DNA of 64,000 nt, taken from Eubacteriales bacterium. Its GTDB lineage: Bacteria; Bacillota; Clostridia; Lachnospirales; Lachnospiraceae. Positions 1 through 59,450 of the stretch are shown piece by piece. The stretch covers positions 30,472 through 94,471 of the forward strand of contig JAUNOY010000010.1 of assembly GCA_030536995.1 (NCBI GenBank). The letters run 5' to 3'. The notes below the pieces were generated by a model. That model ran no database searches. It was not told the DNA's origin and saw nothing but the letters and a program-made list of their open reading frames with translations. How positions within the stretch are numbered: position 1 is the first letter of the stretch; every line of letters starts with the position of its first letter. Both the position numbers and the translations under genes were made by a program.

Positions 1-717
1 CAGCCCCAGTAGCTCACCTATACGGCAGCCTGTCCACGCCAGCAAATAAAAAAGATTGTAATGCTTTGAATATACCGTATCATTCTCAATAAATTCCAGT
101 AAATCATGCTGCTCTTGTGCTTCCAGAGAATGTTTTGACTTCTTTTCAATATTGTTTTTCTTTTTCACATTTCCCACGCACCCCGTCACTGGGTTATTTC
201 TAATCAGATTCTTTTTGACTGCCAGTATAAAGGTCCCGTTCATAACTTTGTTAATGGCTGTTATCGTTCCAATTTGTACAGGTTTCTTTTTATCATTTAA
301 TAGTTCACTGTAAAAATTCTCTATCGTGTCCGCTGTTATCTTATTGATTTTTCTTTTTCCGATTTTGTTCTTGATATGTACCCTATACATACTTTCAAGA
401 TTGTTATAGGTTGTTGGCTGCCAGTACGGTTTATGCTGTTGTAAATATTCCTCTGCCAACTTATTTACTGTAATCCCTGTTCCCCACGCCTTTATATTTT
501 CAATCATATCTTTTTGTATTTGTGCTTCCAGTTCTCGCAAGCTCTCGCCATACTTCTTTCCTTCTGGCGCCGCATCTTCTGGGCGAAGTCTCCAAGAGTA
601 AACATCATGCGAAACGCCCCGATCATCATAATAACGGTATCTGTAACGTCCTGTTTTCTCCTGTGACTCTCCTTTTTCAAGTACAATCCCTCTATTATCC
701 CGTCTTTTCTCCGCCAT
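1..717 (-). CDS. int: Tyrosine recombinase / integrase, Tn916 Int type (3' part cut by window edge)
   Basis: Site-specific integrase that would recombine element and chromosome att sites. The N-terminus (residues 1-45) has the RRDNRG...GESQ...GRYRYRYYDD pattern of the Tn916 Int arm-binding domain. A SAM-like core-binding domain follows (about residues 85-190), and the start of the catalytic domain with TGCRIGELLG is reached at the edge; this contains the first catalytic Arg. The remaining catalytic residues lie beyond base 1. The ATG at 717 is chosen because it gives the conserved N-terminus; another ATG at 722 is in a different frame. The small gene upstream ends at 722, so the two are probably co-transcribed. 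The family assignment is clear; the completeness of the gene cannot be judged. Confidence 0.93.
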   Translation of the reverse strand, partial: MAEKRRDNRGIVLEKGESQEKTGRYRYRYYDDRGVSHDVYSWRLRPEDAAPEGKKYGESLRELEAQIQKDMIENIKAWGTGITVNKLAEEYLQQHKPYWQPTTYNNLESMYRVHIKNKIGKRKINKITADTIENFYSELLNDKKKPVQIGTITAINKVMNGTFILAVKKNLIRNNPVTGCVGNVKKKNNIEKKSKHSLEAQEQHDLLEFIENDTVYSKHYNLFYLLAWTGCRIGELLGL

Positions 718-721
718 ATCA

Positions 722-2305: not shown

Positions 2306-2377
2306 TTGACATACTATACAAATATATGGGCACACATCTGCGTCATTTTTGTAACTATTTTATATGGACACACATAT
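2285..2377. repeat. Three copies of an operator-like dyad, period 38-39 bp
   Basis: ATATGGGCACACATAT occurs at 2285-2300, its 14-base core at 2324-2337, and a one-base variant (GGA for GGG) at 2362-2377. Each copy has ATATG and CATAT-type ends in inverted orientation. The start-to-start distances are 39 and 38 bp. Copy 1 fills the spacer of the leftward promoter and copy 3 covers the -35 of the rightward promoter, with copy 2 between them. The likely ligand is the RHH protein encoded directly downstream. Confidence 0.75.
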
Positions 2378-2393
2378 TTACAAATGGTATAAT
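2365..2393 (+). promoter_or_regulatory. Rightward promoter of the RHH regulator
   Basis: -35 TGGACA at 2365-2370, a 17 bp spacer and a perfect -10 TATAAT at 2388-2393. The third dyad (2362-2377) overlaps the -35, consistent with autorepression of the RHH gene that starts at 2464. Confidence 0.7.
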
Positions 2394-2463
2394 ATTACTG
2401 TAAGGTGGAATAGAATCTTTTTTATAACTCCGCCCCTATTATCCGAAGAAAGAAGGTTGTACT

Positions 2464-2682
2464 ATGCCAGAAGAAAAGAAAAGCACATATACTGGAAATA
2501 CGGATGCCAGAAGAAAAGCAAGTGCAAAGTATTTAAAGGAATCCGTTGAAGATGTAAGAATCCGTGTTCCAAAAGGTCAGAAAGCCATTATAAAGGCTCA
2601 TGCTGACAGTCAAGGCGAATCCATGAATCAATTCGTTATAAGAGCCATTAATGAAACTATGGAACATGACCAGAATAAATAA
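2464..2682 (+). CDS. Ribbon-helix-helix (Arc/CopG-like) regulator, 72 aa
   Basis: DNA-binding regulator. The first ~27 residues are a basic, flexible tail. Residues 28-68 have the RHH layout: a short beta strand (VEDVRIRVPKG) followed by two helices (QKAIIKAHADSQG and SMNQFVIRAINETME). A strong ribosome site (GAAGAAAGAAGG) precedes the ATG. It is one of the few rightward genes in the element and lies divergent from the integrase-side operon, across a region with three identical dyads. It could also be an antitoxin-type RHH protein, but no toxin-like gene follows it. Confidence 0.8.
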   Translation: MPEEKKSTYTGNTDARRKASAKYLKESVEDVRIRVPKGQKAIIKAHADSQGESMNQFVIRAINETMEHDQNK

Positions 2683-2688
2683 GCACGT

Positions 2689-2702
2689 CCTCACTTTTGA
2701 GG
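2689..2702 (+). terminator. Short hairpin after the RHH gene
   Basis: CCTCA and TGAGG pair around a CTTT loop, followed by AGATTCTTTTC. The U-tract is interrupted, so termination may be weak. It starts 6 bases after the RHH stop. Confidence 0.45.
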
Positions 2703-2712
2703 AGATTCTTTT

Positions 2713-2734
2713 CACTGTACAATTTTGTGCAGTG
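2713..2734. repeat. 22 bp near-perfect palindrome
   Basis: CACTGTACAATTTTGTGCAG followed by TG pairs over 10 positions, with one T-G wobble, around the centre. It abuts the first GTAGAAATTTCTAC palindrome. It may be a protein-binding dyad or a second transcription stop after the RHH gene. Confidence 0.45.
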
Positions 2735-2750
2735 TAGAAATTTCTACGGT
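2732..2750. repeat. 19 bp direct repeat containing a 14 bp palindrome, copy 1
   Basis: GTGTAGAAATTTCTACGGT; the inner GTAGAAATTTCTAC is a perfect dyad. An identical 19 bp copy lies at 2919-2937. Its location in a non-coding region points to a protein-binding site or paired structural element. Confidence 0.7.
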
Positions 2751-2918
2751 GGTAAAGGTGCGCAAATTTGAGCGTTTTTAATTTTTTAGAAAATGTATCG
2801 GATACTAAATTTTTAGCAATCGTAATGAAAGTAGAATATAATCTGGCAGCGCAATCTTGCTCTGTCCTGCCTCGACTCTGGGACTGACCACAATTTTGTT
2901 GTAAGTTGGCTTAGGAAG

Positions 2919-2937
2919 GTGTAGAAATTTCTACGGT
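2919..2937. repeat. 19 bp direct repeat containing a 14 bp palindrome, copy 2
   Basis: Identical to 2732-2750; start-to-start distance is 187 bp. This copy falls inside the proposed structured RNA, whereas copy 1 lies upstream of its putative promoter. Confidence 0.7.
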
Positions 2938-3141
2938 CTCAGTTCGGGCTAAGTACCCAAACCAAGTACGCAGCTCAGCAGAAATAAAACATATTTCCTC
3001 TGTGGTTCCTGTGGCGGCATCTGACGGCTGAATTTTGAGCAGTCAACTTTATTTCTGACTGGGGAATTATTCCCAATCCACTTTTAGCTTCGACTCCGCT
3101 GATCTGGAATTACATGACATGAACCCACAGAAGGAGAGTTC

Positions 3142-3179
3142 CCGGCTTTTCAGTTCTTGGCTGATCTGCCGGTTTTTTT
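3142..3179 (+). terminator. Intrinsic terminator, plus strand, inside the non-coding region
   Basis: CCGGC (3142-3146) pairs with GCCGG (3168-3172) with an inner CAG/CTG pairing, followed directly by seven T. The only upstream transcripts on this strand are the RHH gene and the proposed RNA, so it supports rightward transcription through the non-coding block. Confidence 0.65.
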
Positions 3180-3222
3180 CTATGTTCGGGGTTCCAATCT
3201 GGTCAAGGCTGTCCCTTTTATC

Positions 3223-3374
3223 CCCCCTTCGCTAGCTCAATGTTTTGCCATAGCCTTTAGTGTCGTGAAACACGACAGCTTTTTAGGCTTAATATTCCGC
3301 TGACAGAACGATTCGTTCACCCTTCACTGGCTCGGTGTTTTACCGCATCCTTTTTAAAGTCGTGAAATGCAATG
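3223..3374. repeat. Two diverged copies of a ~50 nt module
   Basis: Copy 1 (about 3225-3277) and copy 2 (about 3319-3372) share CCCTTC-CT-GCTC--TGTTTT-CC---CC and end in GTCGTGAAA. In copy 1 the tail forms the perfect hairpin TGTCGTGAAACACGACA (3261-3277); in copy 2 the hairpin partner is lost, but the upstream CGGT/ACCG hairpin appears. This is duplication followed by divergence. Confidence 0.55.
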
Positions 3375-3698
3375 TTAAATACTTCACCTCACACCCATTT
3401 GGGCTTGAGTTGCTGTGCTAATACTTGCAACCTCACGGACATTTGGCTTTCAGTCATTATCTGAATCTTATGCACTGATCTGGTGCGCAAGCACTGGCAG
3501 CAGATGGGGTCATTACTGGTGAGGGTGTCCTCTGCCTGGACGTCATTTTTTTATTTGCACCTTAATGAGCAAAAATAGCAGAAATAGCAAAAACCTTTTC
3601 CGTGATCGTATTTCATGTCATTTTTGATATTATTGCTACAGCAACCAAGAATATCAATTTATCTTTTAACTGTAGTAGCTTGGCGGAATAACAAACTG

Positions 3699-3980
3699 CT
3701 ACGCCTTATAATTCTCCGCTGTTCCCTCGCTGTTCAATTTCATCATCTGCCTTTTAGCTTCCTCTTCACTCACTCCCAATATCTCCGCTACTTCTGCCAG
3801 AAAGAATCGTTCATCTATTCCAAACTCTTCCGCAATTGCCATCCGGATTCCGGTATAAATCATACTGTAAGTAAAGCCTTTAGCTTCTCCGCTGTCTATG
3901 ATTTTCACGATACCGTCCATATCAAGTTCCAAGTGTCCATAGTTTGTCCTGATGTTTTTTAATAAATCGTCTCTTGTCAT
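3699..3980 (-). CDS. Hypothetical element protein (93 aa)
   Basis: Acidic, helix-rich protein with no recognised domain. Near residues 58-80 the run ERFFLAEVAEILGVSEEEAKRQM resembles a helix-turn-helix, so it may be a small regulator or a replication-associated factor. It is the last leftward gene of the replication cluster, separated from the 94-aa gene by a 450 bp leader that carries a duplicated ~54 nt motif. The ATG is preceded by an AAAAGAAAGACGAA purine run. Confidence 0.55.
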   Translation of the reverse strand: MTRDDLLKNIRTNYGHLELDMDGIVKIIDSGEAKGFTYSMIYTGIRMAIAEEFGIDERFFLAEVAEILGVSEEEAKRQMMKLNSEGTAENYKA

Positions 3981-4154
3981 TTCGTCTTTCTTTTATAAAA
4001 TCCATGTTTTAAAGATGTTTTTGCCTTTACCCTTACAATTCCTCACCCGTTACATAAAAATGGATTCTAGGGGCTATTTTGCTCGTTGTAGCACATATAT
4101 AGCATACTAATTTCCAGTTTCAAAATTTGATGTGGGAATAAATTATAAATATAG

Positions 4155-4208
4155 GGGCATAAGTGGTCGTGGGCGTTTGCTATTTTTAAAGTTTACATAC
4201 TCCGGGGG
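4155..4208. repeat. Duplicated motif, copy 1
   Basis: Conserved blocks GTGGTCGTGGGC (4163-4174) and TACATACTCCGGGG (4194-4207). Copy 2 has the same two blocks at 4353-4364 and 4383-4396, with nearly the same internal spacing. Confidence 0.65.
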
Positions 4209-4344
4209 TACCCTACAGGCATCCAATAACCGAACCACCGCAGCACCGCCTTTGCAATCTGCTTTGTTATGTATGCGCTACCTCACTATGATTACAGTAA
4301 CGCACAATTCACTTTCCCATTTCTGGCAATCTTCATGTATCTAT

Positions 4345-4397
4345 CGGCTTATGTGGTCGTGGGCAATAATCATTTTTTAAGCTACATACTCCGGGGT
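4345..4397. repeat. Duplicated motif, copy 2
   Basis: Same two blocks as 4155-4208, 190 bp away. Here TATGTGG (4350-4356) can also pair with CTACATA (4382-4388, one G-T wobble), giving a stem-loop that copy 1 does not form as well. Confidence 0.65.
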
Positions 4398-4431
4398 TCT
4401 GCTGCCGCATCCGGTTCCCTTCTGCCCCGGC

Positions 4432-4716
4432 TTACTCCGGGAACTGTTGCAAATACTTCCTTGCGCTCTGCAATGCTTCCATAGTTCCCAGTGATCTGTT
4501 CTCTAATGTCCGGATAAACTGCATTACTTCGCTCCTGTTTGCTGGCAGATAATAACCGCCCGGTGGAACTGTACTGGACAGAATCACTGCACCCTCTCGG
4601 CGTTCTCTTTCAATCTGCTTTTGTACCGCCCTTACGCTGTCAAGTCCTGCTGCCGCTGCCAGATACTCCGGTGATAATGCGTTCTGTATTCCTGTATGTA
4701 ACAATTCTTCTATCAT
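4432..4716 (-). CDS. Small winged-helix-like phage protein (94 aa)
   Basis: Residues about 12-62 look like a winged helix: LSPEYLAAAAGLDSVRAVQKQIERERREG gives the helices, and the strand-turn-strand AVILSSTVPPGGYYLPAN gives the wing. The C-terminal 35 residues form a helix. This arrangement is common in small Firmicute phage and element proteins encoded beside replication genes. The exact role is unknown; DNA binding is inferred from the fold. Confidence 0.65.
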   Translation of the reverse strand: MIEELLHTGIQNALSPEYLAAAAGLDSVRAVQKQIERERREGAVILSSTVPPGGYYLPANRSEVMQFIRTLENRSLGTMEALQSARKYLQQFPE

Positions 4717-4827: not shown

Positions 4828-5004
4828 TTAATCTGTATAAATACTTCCACGAACATTAACAGTTATTCCATCATCACGCTCGCAACTAAAAAGAGTGTCA
4901 TCTATTCTTGAAATACTGCAATTTATACACTCTAACTCCTGTTCTATTCCTTCCAATGCCTTCGCTATGCGCTCCATGTATTCTTCCTGTTTTTCTGATG
5001 TCAT
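4828..5004 (-). CDS. Small acidic protein (58 aa), coupled to the upstream gene
   Basis: The ATG at 5004 overlaps the TGA of the 75-aa gene (ATGA). The N-terminal half is a charged helix (TSEKQEEYMERIAKALEGIEQELE), followed by three spaced cysteines (CINCS, SCERDD). The family is not recognised. The overlap with a well-supported operon favours a real gene. Confidence 0.55.
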   Translation of the reverse strand: MTSEKQEEYMERIAKALEGIEQELECINCSISRIDDTLFSCERDDGITVNVRGSIYTD

Positions 5005-5228
5005 TTCTTCATCTTCCTTTCCTGCTGATCTAAATCACTTGTTACTGCTAACATCAAATACTCTGCCGCCTTGGTTCCACCATACTTTTCTCGGAACTCA
5101 TGGGCTTCTTGCACTACCTGTTCCCAGTGCTGCTCTGTCATTGGTTTGGGAATTACCGCCCACTTCCTGTAGAACCGCCAAGCCCCTGTGAACATTTCGT
5201 ATTTCTGTTTTAATTCCTGTTCTGTCAT
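5001..5228 (-). CDS. Hypothetical protein (75 aa) of the replication operon
   Basis: Charged, aromatic-rich small protein (MTEQELKQKYEMFTGAWRFYRKW...). Its start overlaps the stop of the primase-helicase gene by 4 nt and its stop overlaps the next gene, so it is tightly embedded in the operon. The family is not recognised; it may be an accessory replication factor by context. Confidence 0.65.
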   Translation of the reverse strand: MTEQELKQKYEMFTGAWRFYRKWAVIPKPMTEQHWEQVVQEAHEFREKYGGTKAAEYLMLAVTSDLDQQERKMKK

Positions 5229-7072
5229 TCAAACGGTATCTCCATTCGTTCTGCCTGTTCTTGTGTTATCTGAATAAATCCATTTTCGTCTTTTTCCCAT
5301 CCATAGGACTTTGTAAAGTCCGCTCTATTGTCGCATATTCGCTTTGATGCTTGATCGTAATATAAAGGAATTGCATCTTCTCCCACCGCCAACTTACCTG
5401 TAAGCCTGTTTTTTGATATAGTCACTACACGTTCGGCATCTTCGAATGAAGTTAAATTTCTTTTGTAGGTCATTACAATATCTACTTTGTTTGTTATGTC
5501 TGCACTTCCACTCACTTCGTCTGTATCATCATTTCCGAAACGGTTCTTTCTAGGGTGGACAACTAAAATCACCGCCACCTGTAAGCGCTTTGCCATCTTT
5601 ACAAGTTTATCAACAAACTTACTTTGCGCCCGGTATAAGTCCACGCTCATTCCAACATCTAAAGCGGTCATAAGGTTATCTAGCAACACAAGCTGTATTC
5701 CATACTGCTGAACTGCCTTTTCTATTGTTTGCAGTAAGTTTTCTAGTTCATCATCAGAAGTTGACTGATTATCATACAGATACGCTCTTTCTTTGTACCA
5801 TTCCTCAATCTTGCTTATTTTCTCGTTGGTCACAAAATAGCTAACACCACCATTTTCTGCTGCTCGATCAATTACGTTGTGCTTTCCTGCTATCTGGAAA
5901 TCCATCCACCTTTTAAAAAAATAATCCGGCAATTCTCCGGAATATGCAAGAATACGCATCCCTTGTTCTAGGGCGTTCACAAGTATCTGTGAAGTAAATG
6001 TACTTTTCCCATCTCCCCTTTTTCCAGTCACAATTGCAGTTTGTCCAAGGTAAATTCCGCCAGATAGAATTTTATCTAACGTTTTGAATCCTGTTGAAAT
6101 CTTCGGTAAAGAGAATAAATCCACGGCTTTTACATCCGATAACCTCACGATTCTCTGGACCGGTACGCATTGCGCCTGTTCTACCGCCTTTCTTACAGCT
6201 TCTTTTCCGTATTTCTGTAATAGCTCGTTGGCATCCTTGCACCCTTTATAATCTTGCTGTTTAACCGCCTTTACGGTACCTCTGAACCGCTTTTTCATAT
6301 CATCCAGAAGGGTTATAATTCCGTTTTCATTGTCACCGAATACAATTAATGTTTCAAACTGCTGCATCCAGTCCCAACAGTAAGGCACCCACGCGAAACC
6401 ATTTTTTCCTGTTGGAACCGATACTGCATTTTCTATTCCAGATTCTGCTACTGATAAGCTATCAATTTGCCCCTCTGTCATAATCAATGTCTTATTCTCT
6501 GGATTACATTGATACATCCCAAACAAGATAGGCTTGCAATTTGCTTCACACCATTCCTTTGCTGTATCTTTTTCCCGGTCAAAATTTGTTTTCCTGTACT
6601 TTACAAACTGCATCACCCCGGCGGCATCCAGAAAAGGAAACACCAATACATTTTCGTTTTTCGTCTGCACAGTGATCTGATACTTTTCTGTTGTACTGGA
6701 AGATATTCCCCTGCTTTCCAGATAAGCAACGGCAGCAGATTTCGGCTTTATTGGTTCTGCTTTCTTTTTGAATTTTCGGTATTTTCGCCTGTTGTTGGTT
6801 TTATAATAAGCATCCACGTCTTTCCCCAGGCTAAACCAATCAAAATCCTTTGCTAAAGTAACCATATTTCCAGAAACAGAACAACTAGACCTCAAACATT
6901 TAAACTGTCCCGTCCGGAGACTGATGGAAAAAGTCCCTTTGTCTCCACTTCCCCCACCTCTACAGTAAGGGCAAGTTTGGAACATCAATTCTTCTCCCCT
7001 CTTTTTTGCTTCTATCCCAGAACCTCTTACAAAGTCCCAAGCATCTGATTCTTTAAACTCATAATATGACAT
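5225..7072 (-). CDS. Bifunctional primase-helicase, T7 gp4/Twinkle-like (615 aa)
   Basis: Primes and unwinds DNA for element replication. The N-terminus has a four-cysteine zinc ribbon (CPYC...C..C, about residues 35-64) typical of the primase zinc domain. A TOPRIM core follows, with EGQIDSL (about 200) and FGDNEN (about 245). The C-terminal half is a DnaB/RecA-type helicase with Walker A GKRGDGKS (about 350) and Walker B LVLLDN (about 465). All key motifs are present. The gene starts 3 nt after the initiator gene and overlaps the 75-aa gene. Such fusions are typical of phages and replicating satellites. Confidence 0.9.
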   Translation of the reverse strand: MSYYEFKESDAWDFVRGSGIEAKKRGEELMFQTCPYCRGGGSGDKGTFSISLRTGQFKCLRSSCSVSGNMVTLAKDFDWFSLGKDVDAYYKTNNRRKYRKFKKKAEPIKPKSAAVAYLESRGISSSTTEKYQITVQTKNENVLVFPFLDAAGVMQFVKYRKTNFDREKDTAKEWCEANCKPILFGMYQCNPENKTLIMTEGQIDSLSVAESGIENAVSVPTGKNGFAWVPYCWDWMQQFETLIVFGDNENGIITLLDDMKKRFRGTVKAVKQQDYKGCKDANELLQKYGKEAVRKAVEQAQCVPVQRIVRLSDVKAVDLFSLPKISTGFKTLDKILSGGIYLGQTAIVTGKRGDGKSTFTSQILVNALEQGMRILAYSGELPDYFFKRWMDFQIAGKHNVIDRAAENGGVSYFVTNEKISKIEEWYKERAYLYDNQSTSDDELENLLQTIEKAVQQYGIQLVLLDNLMTALDVGMSVDLYRAQSKFVDKLVKMAKRLQVAVILVVHPRKNRFGNDDTDEVSGSADITNKVDIVMTYKRNLTSFEDAERVVTISKNRLTGKLAVGEDAIPLYYDQASKRICDNRADFTKSYGWEKDENGFIQITQEQAERMEIPFE

Positions 7073-7075
7073 TTA

Positions 7076-7843
7076 TTAATCACTCCATAAATCAATTGGT
7101 TTCTCTGGTTTTTCCATTTCTGCCGGACGTACCTTTCTAGTTGACGGCACTTCGTTTAAATATCCTTCAAATTTTGTCCCGAACAAGGTTTCCGGTCGCA
7201 AATACTTTTCCATTTCTTTATTTCCAGTCCACTGCGGAACTTTCCAGTCAATTACTTTCTTAAAATCTTCCAAGGTATAACCTTCATTTATCCTCGCTTT
7301 GATAAGTTTCTGGTTTGCCTTTGAACTATGCTTGAATTTCTTTCCAGTCCTCTGGTTCAGATGTTCAATAACCTCTTTAAAAGGGTATGTAGTCGGGCTT
7401 TGCTCGACAATATTATTTATTCTATTCTCTTCTATTCTCTTTTGGGTAGCCACATCTGCCGCACATTGGTTGACACTTGGTATACCATCTGGTACACCAT
7501 CTAGGTTAATTTGATATTTTCCATTAATCTCTGCAAGACTTTTCTTTTCTTCAATACACCTTGTTGCTGTGTATCTGTCACCTCGCAAATAATTGTTGGC
7601 TTTCCAGTCTGTTATTACGATTACACCGCTTTCAAACGGAATTATGAAATTCTTGGCAATCAACAGTTTTAAATCATCATCATTGCACCCGGAAACTGCA
7701 AGAATCTTTTTAGGTGATGTTACGAATCCATCATCATCCGCTCTCATTCCCAGATGAAAGTACAATGCTTGGGTTGATGTTGGCATATCTAAGAACTTGT
7801 CCGTGTCAATCACATCCAGAGAAAACATTCGTTTATTTCTCAA
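7076..7843 (-). CDS. Phage-type replisome organizer / initiator (255 aa)
   Basis: Residues about 1-100 (RMFSLDVIDTDKFLDMP...YFHLGMRADDDGFV...NNYLRGDRY) match the N-terminal winged-helix domain of Firmicute phage replication initiators. Residues about 165-245 (VIEHLNQRTGKKFK...LIKARINEGYTLEDFKKVIDWK...LRPETLF) match the conserved phage C-terminal domain that loads helicase. A low-complexity linker separates them. It lies directly upstream of the primase-helicase and downstream of the excisionase-like gene. Confidence 0.88.
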   Translation of the reverse strand: MRNKRMFSLDVIDTDKFLDMPTSTQALYFHLGMRADDDGFVTSPKKILAVSGCNDDDLKLLIAKNFIIPFESGVIVITDWKANNYLRGDRYTATRCIEEKKSLAEINGKYQINLDGVPDGIPSVNQCAADVATQKRIEENRINNIVEQSPTTYPFKEVIEHLNQRTGKKFKHSSKANQKLIKARINEGYTLEDFKKVIDWKVPQWTGNKEMEKYLRPETLFGTKFEGYLNEVPSTRKVRPAEMEKPEKPIDLWSD

Positions 7844-7857
7844 CTGCTGCCACCGCC

Positions 7858-8061
7858 TTACTCTGCATTAGTTAAATCATTAAAATACTGATCAATTTTT
7901 ACCCTGTCCCACAGCACTCTCCTGCCGATCTGAACCCTTGCGCCGATCTCGTCACCTAATTTCATGGCATTGTTTCGTCCTAAGTTTGTATAGGCTCTCA
8001 GTTCTTCCGTGTCCATCAATCTTGCTTCATTCGTGCTGGCAATTATTTTTCTACTTCTCAT
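7858..8061 (-). CDS. Excisionase-like helix-turn-helix protein (67 aa)
   Basis: Residues 15-60 (LMDTEELRAYTNLGRNNAMKLGDEIGARVQIGRRVLWDRVKIDQYF) follow the MerR/AlpA-type HTH layout of excisionase-family proteins, including a wing ending in R-x-V-L-W and a YF helix. It is the first gene after the leftward early promoter. The role is either recombination directionality with the integrase or activation of early genes; the fold is clear, the role is inferred. Ribosome site AAAGGAGAGATAAAC. Confidence 0.78.
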   Translation of the reverse strand: MRSRKIIASTNEARLMDTEELRAYTNLGRNNAMKLGDEIGARVQIGRRVLWDRVKIDQYFNDLTNAE

Positions 8062-8229: not shown

Positions 8230-8955
8230 ATGGGATATGCAACAGAGAAATTTTCTAAACGCTTAAAAGAAATTCGGGAAGCATCTGGATTAACACAGGC
8301 GCAACTGGCTTCTGAATTAAAAGTGTCCAGGGGGGCGATAAGCTACTACGAAAACGGGGAGAGAACCCCCGATATTGAATTTTTAGATTCTCTTGCAGAA
8401 TACTTTGACTTGCCTTTAGAATTTGCAATGGGATATACGGACAATATTAAACAAGAACACCGCAATATGTATGAGTTTTATGGTCTTGATGATGCAGCAT
8501 GTGAAGAACTGGATTTTAATCCGGAGATAGGGCAACTTATATCTGCAATACTGGGACACAAAAGTTTTTACGCACTAAAAAGATGTTATAATAGCCTTTT
8601 AAAAAATTACAAAGATTTCAATTTTGAACAACTCAGTTACACCAGTTTTTTAATATCAGATGCACTCAATAAAATCGTCTTTGATTCTTTGTGTATTCTC
8701 CGCGACATGCAATTTACTCCAGAAGAAAAAGAAGCTCTTCGTATAAAAAACGAAATTGCTTTAAAAGAATTTGACGAACTTACCAAAAAATGGAACGAAG
8801 AAGAAATTCGTAGAAAAAAAGAATGGGAAAAGAAAGACTTAGAGCTTGCCAAAAAAGATGAAGAAGAAAATTCGGTTCAATACAAGGCGCAGGATAATGT
8901 TTATGCTAAATTTTATGACGGAACAGAATCCTTGGCACATAAAAGGTATTTCTAA
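8230..8955 (+). CDS. XRE-family repressor with charged C-terminal extension (241 aa)
   Basis: Probable master repressor of the element. Residues about 8-62 form a Cro/CI-type HTH (RLKEIREASGLTQAQLASELKVSRGAISYYENG). The middle is unassigned, and the last ~75 residues are a highly charged coiled-coil stretch (KEFDELTKKWNEEEIRRKKEWEKK). The ATG at 8230 is chosen because AAAGAGGGA precedes it and the HTH starts there; an in-frame ATG at 8101 would lie inside the promoter. No peptidase (S24) domain is seen, so induction would not be by LexA-type self-cleavage. Confidence 0.85.
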   Translation: MGYATEKFSKRLKEIREASGLTQAQLASELKVSRGAISYYENGERTPDIEFLDSLAEYFDLPLEFAMGYTDNIKQEHRNMYEFYGLDDAACEELDFNPEIGQLISAILGHKSFYALKRCYNSLLKNYKDFNFEQLSYTSFLISDALNKIVFDSLCILRDMQFTPEEKEALRIKNEIALKEFDELTKKWNEEEIRRKKEWEKKDLELAKKDEEENSVQYKAQDNVYAKFYDGTESLAHKRYF

Positions 8956-8997: not shown

Positions 8998-9155
8998 TAA
9001 AAATCGGGGGAAATTTAAAATTTCATCTCTGAAACGCCCTATATTAAAGCACTTCCATTAAATTGTGTGCTTTTATTCATAAAAAGTTCATATATTTTTG
9101 ATAAAATATTACATGAATAGAGGCTCGGTGTTTTTGTGATTCAGGAGTAATATTT

Positions 9156-59346: not shown

Positions 59347-59450
59347 CGCCTGGGAAACCCGTTCTTCAGGCTGCCCAGGCGGTCGGCACTTATACAAACC
59401 GCACTCCCTGTAGTTCTTTCTACTTCCGCCAGTCATGCAGCTGTCCGTTA
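59347..59450 (-). promoter_or_regulatory. ZTP (pfl) riboswitch with expression-platform terminator
   Basis: On the minus strand the leader carries a first pseudoknot/helix region (GGACAGCTGCATGACTGGCGG, about 59446-59426) and the hallmark CCGCCTGGGCA of the pfl motif (about 59382-59371). CGCCTGGG (59381-59374) can instead pair with CCCAGGCG (59354-59347) followed by a T-run, giving a terminator that overlaps the aptamer 3' part. ZTP or ZMP binding should prevent termination and turn on the two purine genes when 10-formyl-THF is short. Confidence 0.9.

Follow-up and report, generated by a model that had tools for sequence, protein, structure and literature searches.

Short pieces of a gene-free block in a compact mobile element almost certainly mimic one spot in the antirepressor genes of other phages, judging by the sequences compared here. 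The block occupies positions 2683-3698 of the window, by which we mean the whole 64,000-nucleotide stretch of DNA that was analysed, and its exact antisense matches to AntA-type antirepressor genes, of 22, 20, 18 and 14 nt, all fall at codons 58-67. The array antisense to this gene segment spans 2683-3179 on the plus strand. We tentatively explain the block as a multi-allele antisense RNA array that would silence foreign antirepressors from a phage-satellite-like element, a reading which we consider plausible rather than probable.

Antisense matches to phage antirepressor genes

The mimicry was discovered through a 19-nt repeat, GTGTAGAAATTTCTACGGT, overlooked in the first-pass annotation, which occurs twice in the block (at 2732 and 2919), each copy enclosing a 14-bp perfect palindrome, GTAGAAATTTCTAC (at 2734 and 2921). 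The palindrome was found in this genome only, in two copies, among 64 genomes of the genus, and in 11 of 397 genomes of the family, a sample spanning 334 genera. In one of the latter, G122, it lies directly behind a 71%-identical homologue of the ribbon-helix-helix (RHH; Arc/HicB-like) gene that stands upstream of the array (2464-2682, plus strand), 54 nt past the stop codon compared with 52 nt in the window; no RHH neighbour was seen in the stretch retrieved from each of the remaining nine genomes. The G122 locus, L049, matches the window in layout, with the RHH gene at the equivalent place, a divergent small protein, a small HTH gene and then a gene-free region of greater length, towards which its replication genes are oriented. 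The two gene-free regions are not alignable, but share 27 12-mers (both strands) versus a mean of 1.3 and a maximum of 15 in 300 control segments. Matches to the palindrome pattern in viral contigs, and most of those in genomes, were judged to be chance and lie mostly in coding DNA; the idea that the palindrome resembles helicase codons was weighed and abandoned.

One word common to the block and L049 falls inside the antirepressor gene of a viral contig, L200, in a pattern search. Window positions 2700-2960, when compared with 2.3 billion bases from phage genomes, had six matches up to an E-value of 10, the best of which (22/22 nt, E = 0.3) is to gp29 of Ruminococcus phage phiRgPS_6, annotated as a ‘DNA-binding anti-repressor’. 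The L200 and gp29 matches are at the identical place, from nt 180 of the gene, and both are antisense to the plus strand; the two alleles differ at the matched spot (DF-QGVEIST-PSGQ in gp29, DF-EAAQICA-PSGQ in L200).

Four candidate guides were delineated on the plus strand. G1 (2732-2756) comprises the first palindrome copy and its flank, and matches antirepressor genes over 17 nt in gp29 (2732-2748) and 18 nt in the L273 allele (2739-2756). G2 (2755-2774) is antisense to the AQICA-type allele over 20 nt (L200, L277/L168) and to L304 over 19 nt, G3 (2803-2816) over 14 nt to LTKNLVN/FTKNLVN-type alleles (L272, L281, L288 and L289, and also phages phiRg519T2 and phiRgIBDN1), and G4 (2914-2935), containing the second palindrome copy, over 22 nt to the VEIST-type allele (gp29 and L271). 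The contiguous matches span the centre and one arm of the target, the other arm having diverged. Two further plus-strand features may belong to the same series: the inverted repeat CACTGTACAATTTTGTGCAGTG (2713-2734), similar in style to the guides and without a match among the collected alleles, is possibly an extra guide, and the hairpin TCCTCACTTTTGAGGA directly after the RHH stop codon (2688-2703) is possibly an extra guide or a 3' UTR structure. The 15-nt core of G2 is present in 51 viral contigs, at the antirepressor spot in four (L168, L194, L200 and L204) and scattered in the rest, and CATTTGGCTTTCAGT is present in 55 viral contigs, in none of which was it seen at that spot. For two alleles, L194 (15 nt) and L307 (12 nt), the best window match is in the sense orientation.

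Specificity and ascertainment

To build a test set, antirepressor genes were gathered through peptides conserved in other parts of the protein, which yielded 31 loci with 30 distinct segments. Nine of these 30 alleles are matched by the block at 14 nt or more, compared with a mean of 0.072 and a maximum of 4 in 1937 control segments, and a mean of 0.014 and a maximum of 4 in 1000 dinucleotide shuffles. Raising the threshold to at least 15 or at least 16 nt leaves 4 of the 30, a number also reached by one of the 1937 controls. The nine matched alleles reduce to four sites, and all 12 test-set alleles with a match of at least 12 nt are antisense to the plus strand. In a scan of the first 106 codons with 19 windows of 16 codons each, block matches (13 or 14 nt) were obtained only in the three covering codons 51-76, beyond which there is one 12-nt match at gene nt 443-454; L049 in the same scan has 1 and 2 matches at 13 nt near the gene start. 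Other tested pieces of the 64-kb window match at most two alleles at 13 nt or more. All allele matches of at least 14 nt fall in 2683-3179 and none in the second half of the block (3180-3698, no strand assigned), where there is a single inverted repeat (3261-3277), none of the 30 alleles is matched, and the six matches to phage genomes (E = 0.2-10) all lie outside antirepressors.

Two of the alleles, L200 and L277 (on the same contig as L168), were first met via the shared word, and the query alignment included L200, gp29 and L012. Leaving out L200, L277 and L271 (which has the same core as gp29), 6 of 27 alleles remain (L272, L273, L279, L281, L288 and L289), still above the control maximum. 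Among alleles collected later, L304 is matched over 19 nt, L301 and L302 over 14 nt, L299, L300 and L309 over 11 nt and L307 over 12 nt in sense, while L303, L310, L311, L314 and L316 have no match at 11 nt; no aligned segment was obtained from the Paenibacillus genes L312, L313 and L315, nor from L305, L306 and L308. It is highly improbable, in our estimate, that the matches reflect chance or an ascertainment artefact. The first 22-nt database match has an E-value of 0.3 when taken alone, some alleles were found through block words, and one of the 1937 controls equals the count at 15 nt or more; against this, the count at 14 nt or more was reached by none of the 1937 segments and none of the 1000 shuffles, G1 (through L273) and G3 played no part in finding any allele, and the array of another contig, L199, likewise matches antirepressors. 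Predicted duplex energies were below the control 1% level for 4 of 35 genes with RNA 2683-2842 and for 0 of 35 with RNA 2843-3179.

Comparable arrays in other elements

The L049 gene-free region contains 11 inverted repeats versus 2.35 when shuffled, and matches the codon 58-67 spot over 19 and 22 nt in antisense and 17 nt in sense. L199, a phage contig met via the G2 core, has 23 inverted repeats in 2.7 kb versus 2.98 when shuffled (maximum 7 of 40), and has a 16-nt word in common with the second half of the window block (3307-3322). Among the 20 of 36 L199 matches to the phage collection that were listed are genes with an antirepressor annotation (eight of Streptococcus, one of Lactobacillus), unannotated DNA of five Streptococcus satellite phages, and also Erwinia, Clostridioides and unannotated phages. 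The antirepressor matches lie away from the G2 core and the satellite matches on it; each is weak alone because the E-values range from 0.2 to 10. Contig L084 has five inverted repeats versus 0.70 when shuffled.

The Streptococcus satellite phage Javan201 has a gene-free gap of 615 bp with 10 inverted repeats versus 1.19 when shuffled (maximum 5 of 100), similar in style to those of the window array and, like it, matching an antirepressor at the palindrome: in Javan37, over 17 nt (sense) from gene nt 158 and 15 nt (antisense) from nt 152. The genes flanking the gap on one side (2.4 kb) contain no match to the Javan37 antirepressor. The gap differs from the window block in host genus, in having copies on both strands and in sequence, the longest common word being 12 nt, and the window block itself has no match at 12 nt to Javan37, CR191 or LJ. 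L160 and L186, considered as arrays by word count, were dropped, the words lying partly in coding DNA.

A search of L199, L084, L049 and L160 against Rfam gave one match at the gathering threshold, an ordinary azaaromatic (yjdF) riboswitch of L049 (17802-17933) far from the array. Separately, an RNA-like block, GCTATATTGAGAATAG, with a terminator recurs in L049 (9247-9385), L050 (~2275-2460) and L051 (~3370-3510); it adjoins a small hydrophobic peptide in L050, its L049 copy has relatives in 6 of 8 other searched genomes of L049's genus, and we presume it to be a candidate type I toxin-antitoxin RNA from its resemblance to these.

The palindromic target and its interpretation

The targeted gene segment is itself an inverted repeat in most alleles. 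Over 42 distinct segments the best inverted-repeat score averages 7.90 compared with 4.23 for codon-shuffled sequences (sd 0.17, maximum 4.89 in 200), and 30 of the 42 score at least 7; the AQICA alleles, targets of G2, are poor inverted repeats (4.5 to 6). Stems vary by allele (AGGTGTCGAAATTTCGACACCT, CGTTTTCTAAAAATTTAGAAAACG, TTTTTCACAAATTTGTGAAAAA) around an A/T centre. Inner inverted repeats of 16-30 nt with stems fully changed between alleles were observed in antirepressor genes such as L282, L285, L287, L294 and L319, and a short antirepressor-like frame recognised by eye in a palindrome-rich stretch of L084 (1751-2011) has a variable segment consisting of a 30-nt inverted repeat. An antirepressor of another type, that of Lactobacillus phage CR191, which is taken to be Rha-like, likewise contains a 30-nt inverted repeat, AAACATCTCCCCAATTTTGGGGAGATGTTT. 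On the sense strand of the gene repeats, non-Watson-Crick positions comprise 25 C.A, 5 G.T and 18 other pairs, in counts that include shared descent. Since a sense C.A pair corresponds to a G.U wobble on the antisense strand, an antisense RNA hairpin would tolerate these mismatches. Within the arrays, the C.A/G.T counts are 0/4 in the window, 6/9 in L049, 19/18 in L199 and 1/2 in L084.

The main rival explanation, though an unlikely one, is that the palindromes are DNA binding sites of antirepressor-type (or repressor) proteins, such that a gene's own site would autoregulate it and satellite arrays would sense or titrate the proteins of several helpers. Most are inverted repeats of ~22-24 bp with varied stems, as expected of dimer operators, G3 overlaps the -35 element of the promoter-like site at 2837, both orientations are present in L049, L199 and Javan201, and gp29 is annotated as DNA-binding. 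However, the window matches are all antisense and cover one full arm only before diverging, five complete phages have a single copy, which is unlike operators, and C.A exceeds G.T in the antirepressor genes. We favour RNA pairing over a symmetric protein site because the window guides are all antisense and their matches span the centre and one arm and then diverge. The sense-oriented copies in L049, L199 and Javan201 count against the RNA reading, as does the unremarkable duplex energy of 2843-3179. So do the sense orientation of the best L194 and L307 matches, the C.A/G.T counts within the arrays, the poor inverted repeat in the G2 target and the small excess of inverted repeats in the block itself.

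A recombination or diversification hotspot within antirepressor genes, with the arrays serving as donors (silent cassettes) or persisting as debris, is less likely still. Alleles of close relatives differ in few codons between conserved flanks, and array pieces are identical to allele cores, as a hotspot would have it; the shared pieces, on the other hand, are 14-22 nt long and end at the segment, and the gene surroundings are absent except for the 12-nt match at nt 443-454. Homologous exchange is unlikely because the pieces are so short and the surrounding gene sequence is absent.

A model of self-regulation, in which a phage would carry its own segment twice, did not hold up: a second copy (at most 4 mismatches in 20) was found in none of five complete R. 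gnavus phages. A 14-nt near-copy of its own segment occurs elsewhere in phiRM10, and a 12-13-nt piece in 5 of 38 loci. An AntA gene was not found in the host genome with an AntA query that was positive in 4 of 270 genomes, and therefore any target would need an outside source. The absence of a second segment copy from the five R. gnavus phages and of a detected AntA gene from the host together argue that the array is directed outwards.

Coding content, signals and folding of the block

The block had initially been annotated as a hairpin-rich, non-coding region and a candidate large structured RNA. It is gene-free: for its ten stop-to-stop pieces no match to Pfam or PHROGs had an E-value below 0.085, and a translated comparison with the loci collected by that stage yielded weak matches at most (best E = 0.01), judged by us to be chance; decayed genes were rejected as no protein match was convincing. 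It is also somewhat palindrome-rich, with promoter- and terminator-like signals on the plus strand. The reported TATAAT is present at 2837-2842 with a weak -35 (TTAGCA, 18-nt spacer), and this promoter-like site (TTAGCA-18-TATAAT, 2813-2842, plus strand; consensus match only) would drive an RNA of ~330 nt containing G4. A second such site, TGGACA-17-TATAAT of the RHH gene (2365-2393, plus strand; again by consensus match only), would by read-through yield RNA with G1-G3. The GGGAATTATTCCC hairpin sequence and the T-tailed terminator, an intrinsic-terminator-like stem and T run at 3142-3179 on the plus strand, were likewise recovered. As for the proposed long-range helix, the 10-bp complementarity between 2979-2988 and 3048-3057 exists, but the helix is missing from predicted minimum-energy folds.

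The hairpin richness holds only mildly, because hairpin counts are modest and fold z-scores are near those of coding DNA. Hairpins with stems of at least 6 number five versus 1.6 in shuffles (five being reached by 6 of 200 shuffles), there is no excess over shuffles at stems of at least 7, and imperfect inverted repeats (score of at least 7) number four versus 1.27, with a maximum of 5 in 40 shuffles. Fold energies give z = -1.6 for 2843-3180 on the plus strand (5 of 100 shuffles equally good), -2.6 for 2843-3179 on the minus strand and -1.9 for 3180-3698 on either strand, the whole halves of the block ranging from -1.5 to -2.6. Over 120-nt windows the mean z is -0.57 (plus) and -0.73 (minus), with host coding DNA at -0.55/-0.49 and the primase gene at +0.20/+0.10 for comparison, and 3 of 30 block windows fall below -2 (2683-2802 at -3.5 on plus and -2.5 on minus, and 3343-3462 at -2.8 on plus). 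An unusually stable overall fold is thus not supported, the z-scores of halves and 120-nt windows being unremarkable.

ROOL and GOLLD RNAs occupy gene-free blocks in Firmicutes mobile elements, and the first-pass annotation had raised them as a precedent. We regard a single large structured non-coding RNA of a new ROOL/GOLLD-like class as exceedingly unlikely. Gene-free DNA of ~1 kb with promoter- and terminator-like signals in a mobile element is what such an RNA would present, and the z-scores of 2843-3179 (minus) and 3180-3698 point the same way. Unlike ROOL and GOLLD, however, the block has no Rfam match (whole window at the gathering threshold) and no large fold standing out; neither family appeared up to E = 10 in 2400-4450, the 120-nt windows fold like coding DNA, and the syntenic L049 counterpart shares words with it but no alignable sequence. 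Block homologues among the 64 genus genomes were confined to the genome itself, five others of the 397 family genomes match only at 2320-2670 upstream of the block, and none was found in phages or plasmids, so that these collections supplied no close homologue for a classical covariation test. A better reading of the block hairpins takes them for individual mimics of a single antirepressor-gene segment.

The mobile element carrying the block

The element is 9,848 bp long and flanked by a 16-bp direct repeat, TGTGCTTTTATTCATA, whose right copy lies at 9066-9081 (no strand assigned) and whose left copy is ~780 bases upstream of the window start. It encodes, in order, a Tn916-type integrase (N-terminal part at 1-720, minus strand, continuing beyond the window), small genes, the RHH gene, the gene-free block, further small genes, a primase-helicase (5225-7072, minus), a DnaD-like replication protein (7076-7843, minus) and a phage-type HTH repressor (8230-8955, plus). 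Among the small genes, a conserved protein divergent from the RHH gene (1754-2095, minus) is a marker of related compact elements. No structural (capsid) gene was recognised among the ten proteins scanned, the open reading frames at 4828-5004, 5001-5228 and 7858-8061 lying outside the scan. Integrase, repressor and replication genes between direct repeats, without recognised structural genes, are what a PICI-like phage satellite would carry. By its gene content the element thus resembles a phage satellite, or else a minimal version of the compact phage-like contigs in which the 1754-2095 protein recurs. Of 23 contigs with this protein, 21 are 7-20 kb in size. These phage-like contigs (L081-L103) in several cases also encode the RHH protein and integrase, and in the five examined, open reading frames occupy the position of the gene-free block. 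Primase relatives of the element have the replication gene in common with it; the block itself was not detected in any of them.

Gene-free stretches of compact elements are places where replication origins or packaging sites may lie, and palindromes in an element with its own replication genes would suit such a role. We nevertheless consider an origin or packaging site very unlikely here: the block repeats recur in other phages' antirepressor genes, which leaves the origin proposed at first pass without support, and among the repeat families listed (20 of 24) none has three or more copies in the block, as iterons would.

The interval that separates the divergent small gene from the RHH gene contains, at 2284-2375, three copies of TATATGGGCACACAT, one mismatched, at 38-39-nt spacing, which are perhaps RHH operators; by eye, the sites at this position look different in L049 and also in L050, which has another regulator in place of RHH. 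A second gene-free stretch of the element (3981-4431) contains 43-nt direct repeats (72%) at 4149-4191 and 4339-4381, 190 nt apart and each followed by TACATACTCCGGGG. Elsewhere in the window, Rfam identifies an ordinary ZTP riboswitch (59366-59446).

Proposed mechanism and relation to known systems

Transcription, pairing, silencing and benefit of the array are inferred from sequence. Plus-strand RNA would carry G1-G3 by 3' read-through of the RHH gene, and G4 from the 2837 promoter to the 3179 terminator. Its 14-22-nt stretches complementary to AntA-type antirepressor mRNA at codons 58-67 would first pair in the A/U-rich centre, from which the duplex would spread into one arm, and either translation would be blocked or the mRNA would be opened to RNase attack. 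This would deprive a competing or helper phage of its antirepressor as a means of leaving lysogeny or of knocking out the element's repressor, and several guides would provide coverage of several alleles.

The likely mode of action has close precedents by analogy in c4, sar and 24B_1. The c4 antisense RNA is presumably RF01695. In phages P1 and P7, c4 is described as pairing through complementary loops with ant mRNA around its ribosome-binding site, short complementarity underlying heteroimmunity (PMC12197685). The window array resembles c4 in its exact antisense complementarity (22, 20, 18 and 14 nt) to antirepressor mRNA. It is unlike c4 in that its pieces match an inner codon segment of other phages' antirepressors, no AntA gene was found in its host genome, and it has no Rfam model match. 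The sar RNA of phage P22 is described as pairing in antisense with ant mRNA and blocking translation initiation (PMC12197685), but is a single RNA acting in the same phage. The 20-nt 24B_1 RNA of phage phi24B is reported to have a predicted site inside d_ant, in a foldable region, with in silico pairing (PMC4426718); in contrast to the array it is a single RNA of the same phage group. STnc6030 of prophage BTP1 is summarised as an antisense RNA that excludes superinfecting phage, and differs as a long cis-antisense RNA to its own phage's late genes (PMC7067206). By its inner codon target, several alleles, lack of a model match and lack of a detected antirepressor of its own, the array is not a member of the c4, sar, 24B_1 or STnc6030 systems. 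A search of titles and abstract starts in the openly licensed PMC literature returned no description of arrays mirroring antirepressor alleles. We know of no named counterpart that combines such an array with a changing target palindrome.

A broader reading, which we consider doubtful, is that satellites and prophages carry Cas-less, repeat-less, CRISPR-like arrays of ~20-nt guides, one allele being matched per guide, with antirepressors diversifying the matched segment to escape and satellites collecting alleles, as a widespread form of RNA immunity directed at the choice between lysis and lysogeny. The corresponding target segment is palindromic in 30 of 42 AntA segments, and at least one antirepressor outside this type shares the feature. 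Unlike a CRISPR array, the block has direct repeats of two copies only and no regularly spaced identical repeats.

The analysis links three things that were not seen together in the open literature searched, namely the allele-variable inner inverted repeats of antirepressor genes, the gene-free arrays of satellites and phages that mirror these alleles, and a possible simple role for such blocks. An RNA-based array would confer immunity against several targets, directed at the lysogeny switch and with no dedicated protein; a DNA-based one would be a sensor array letting satellites recognise several helpers. On either reading, the presence of gene-free, hairpin-rich blocks in small mobile elements turns from a puzzle into something testable, with the target gene and the bases named.
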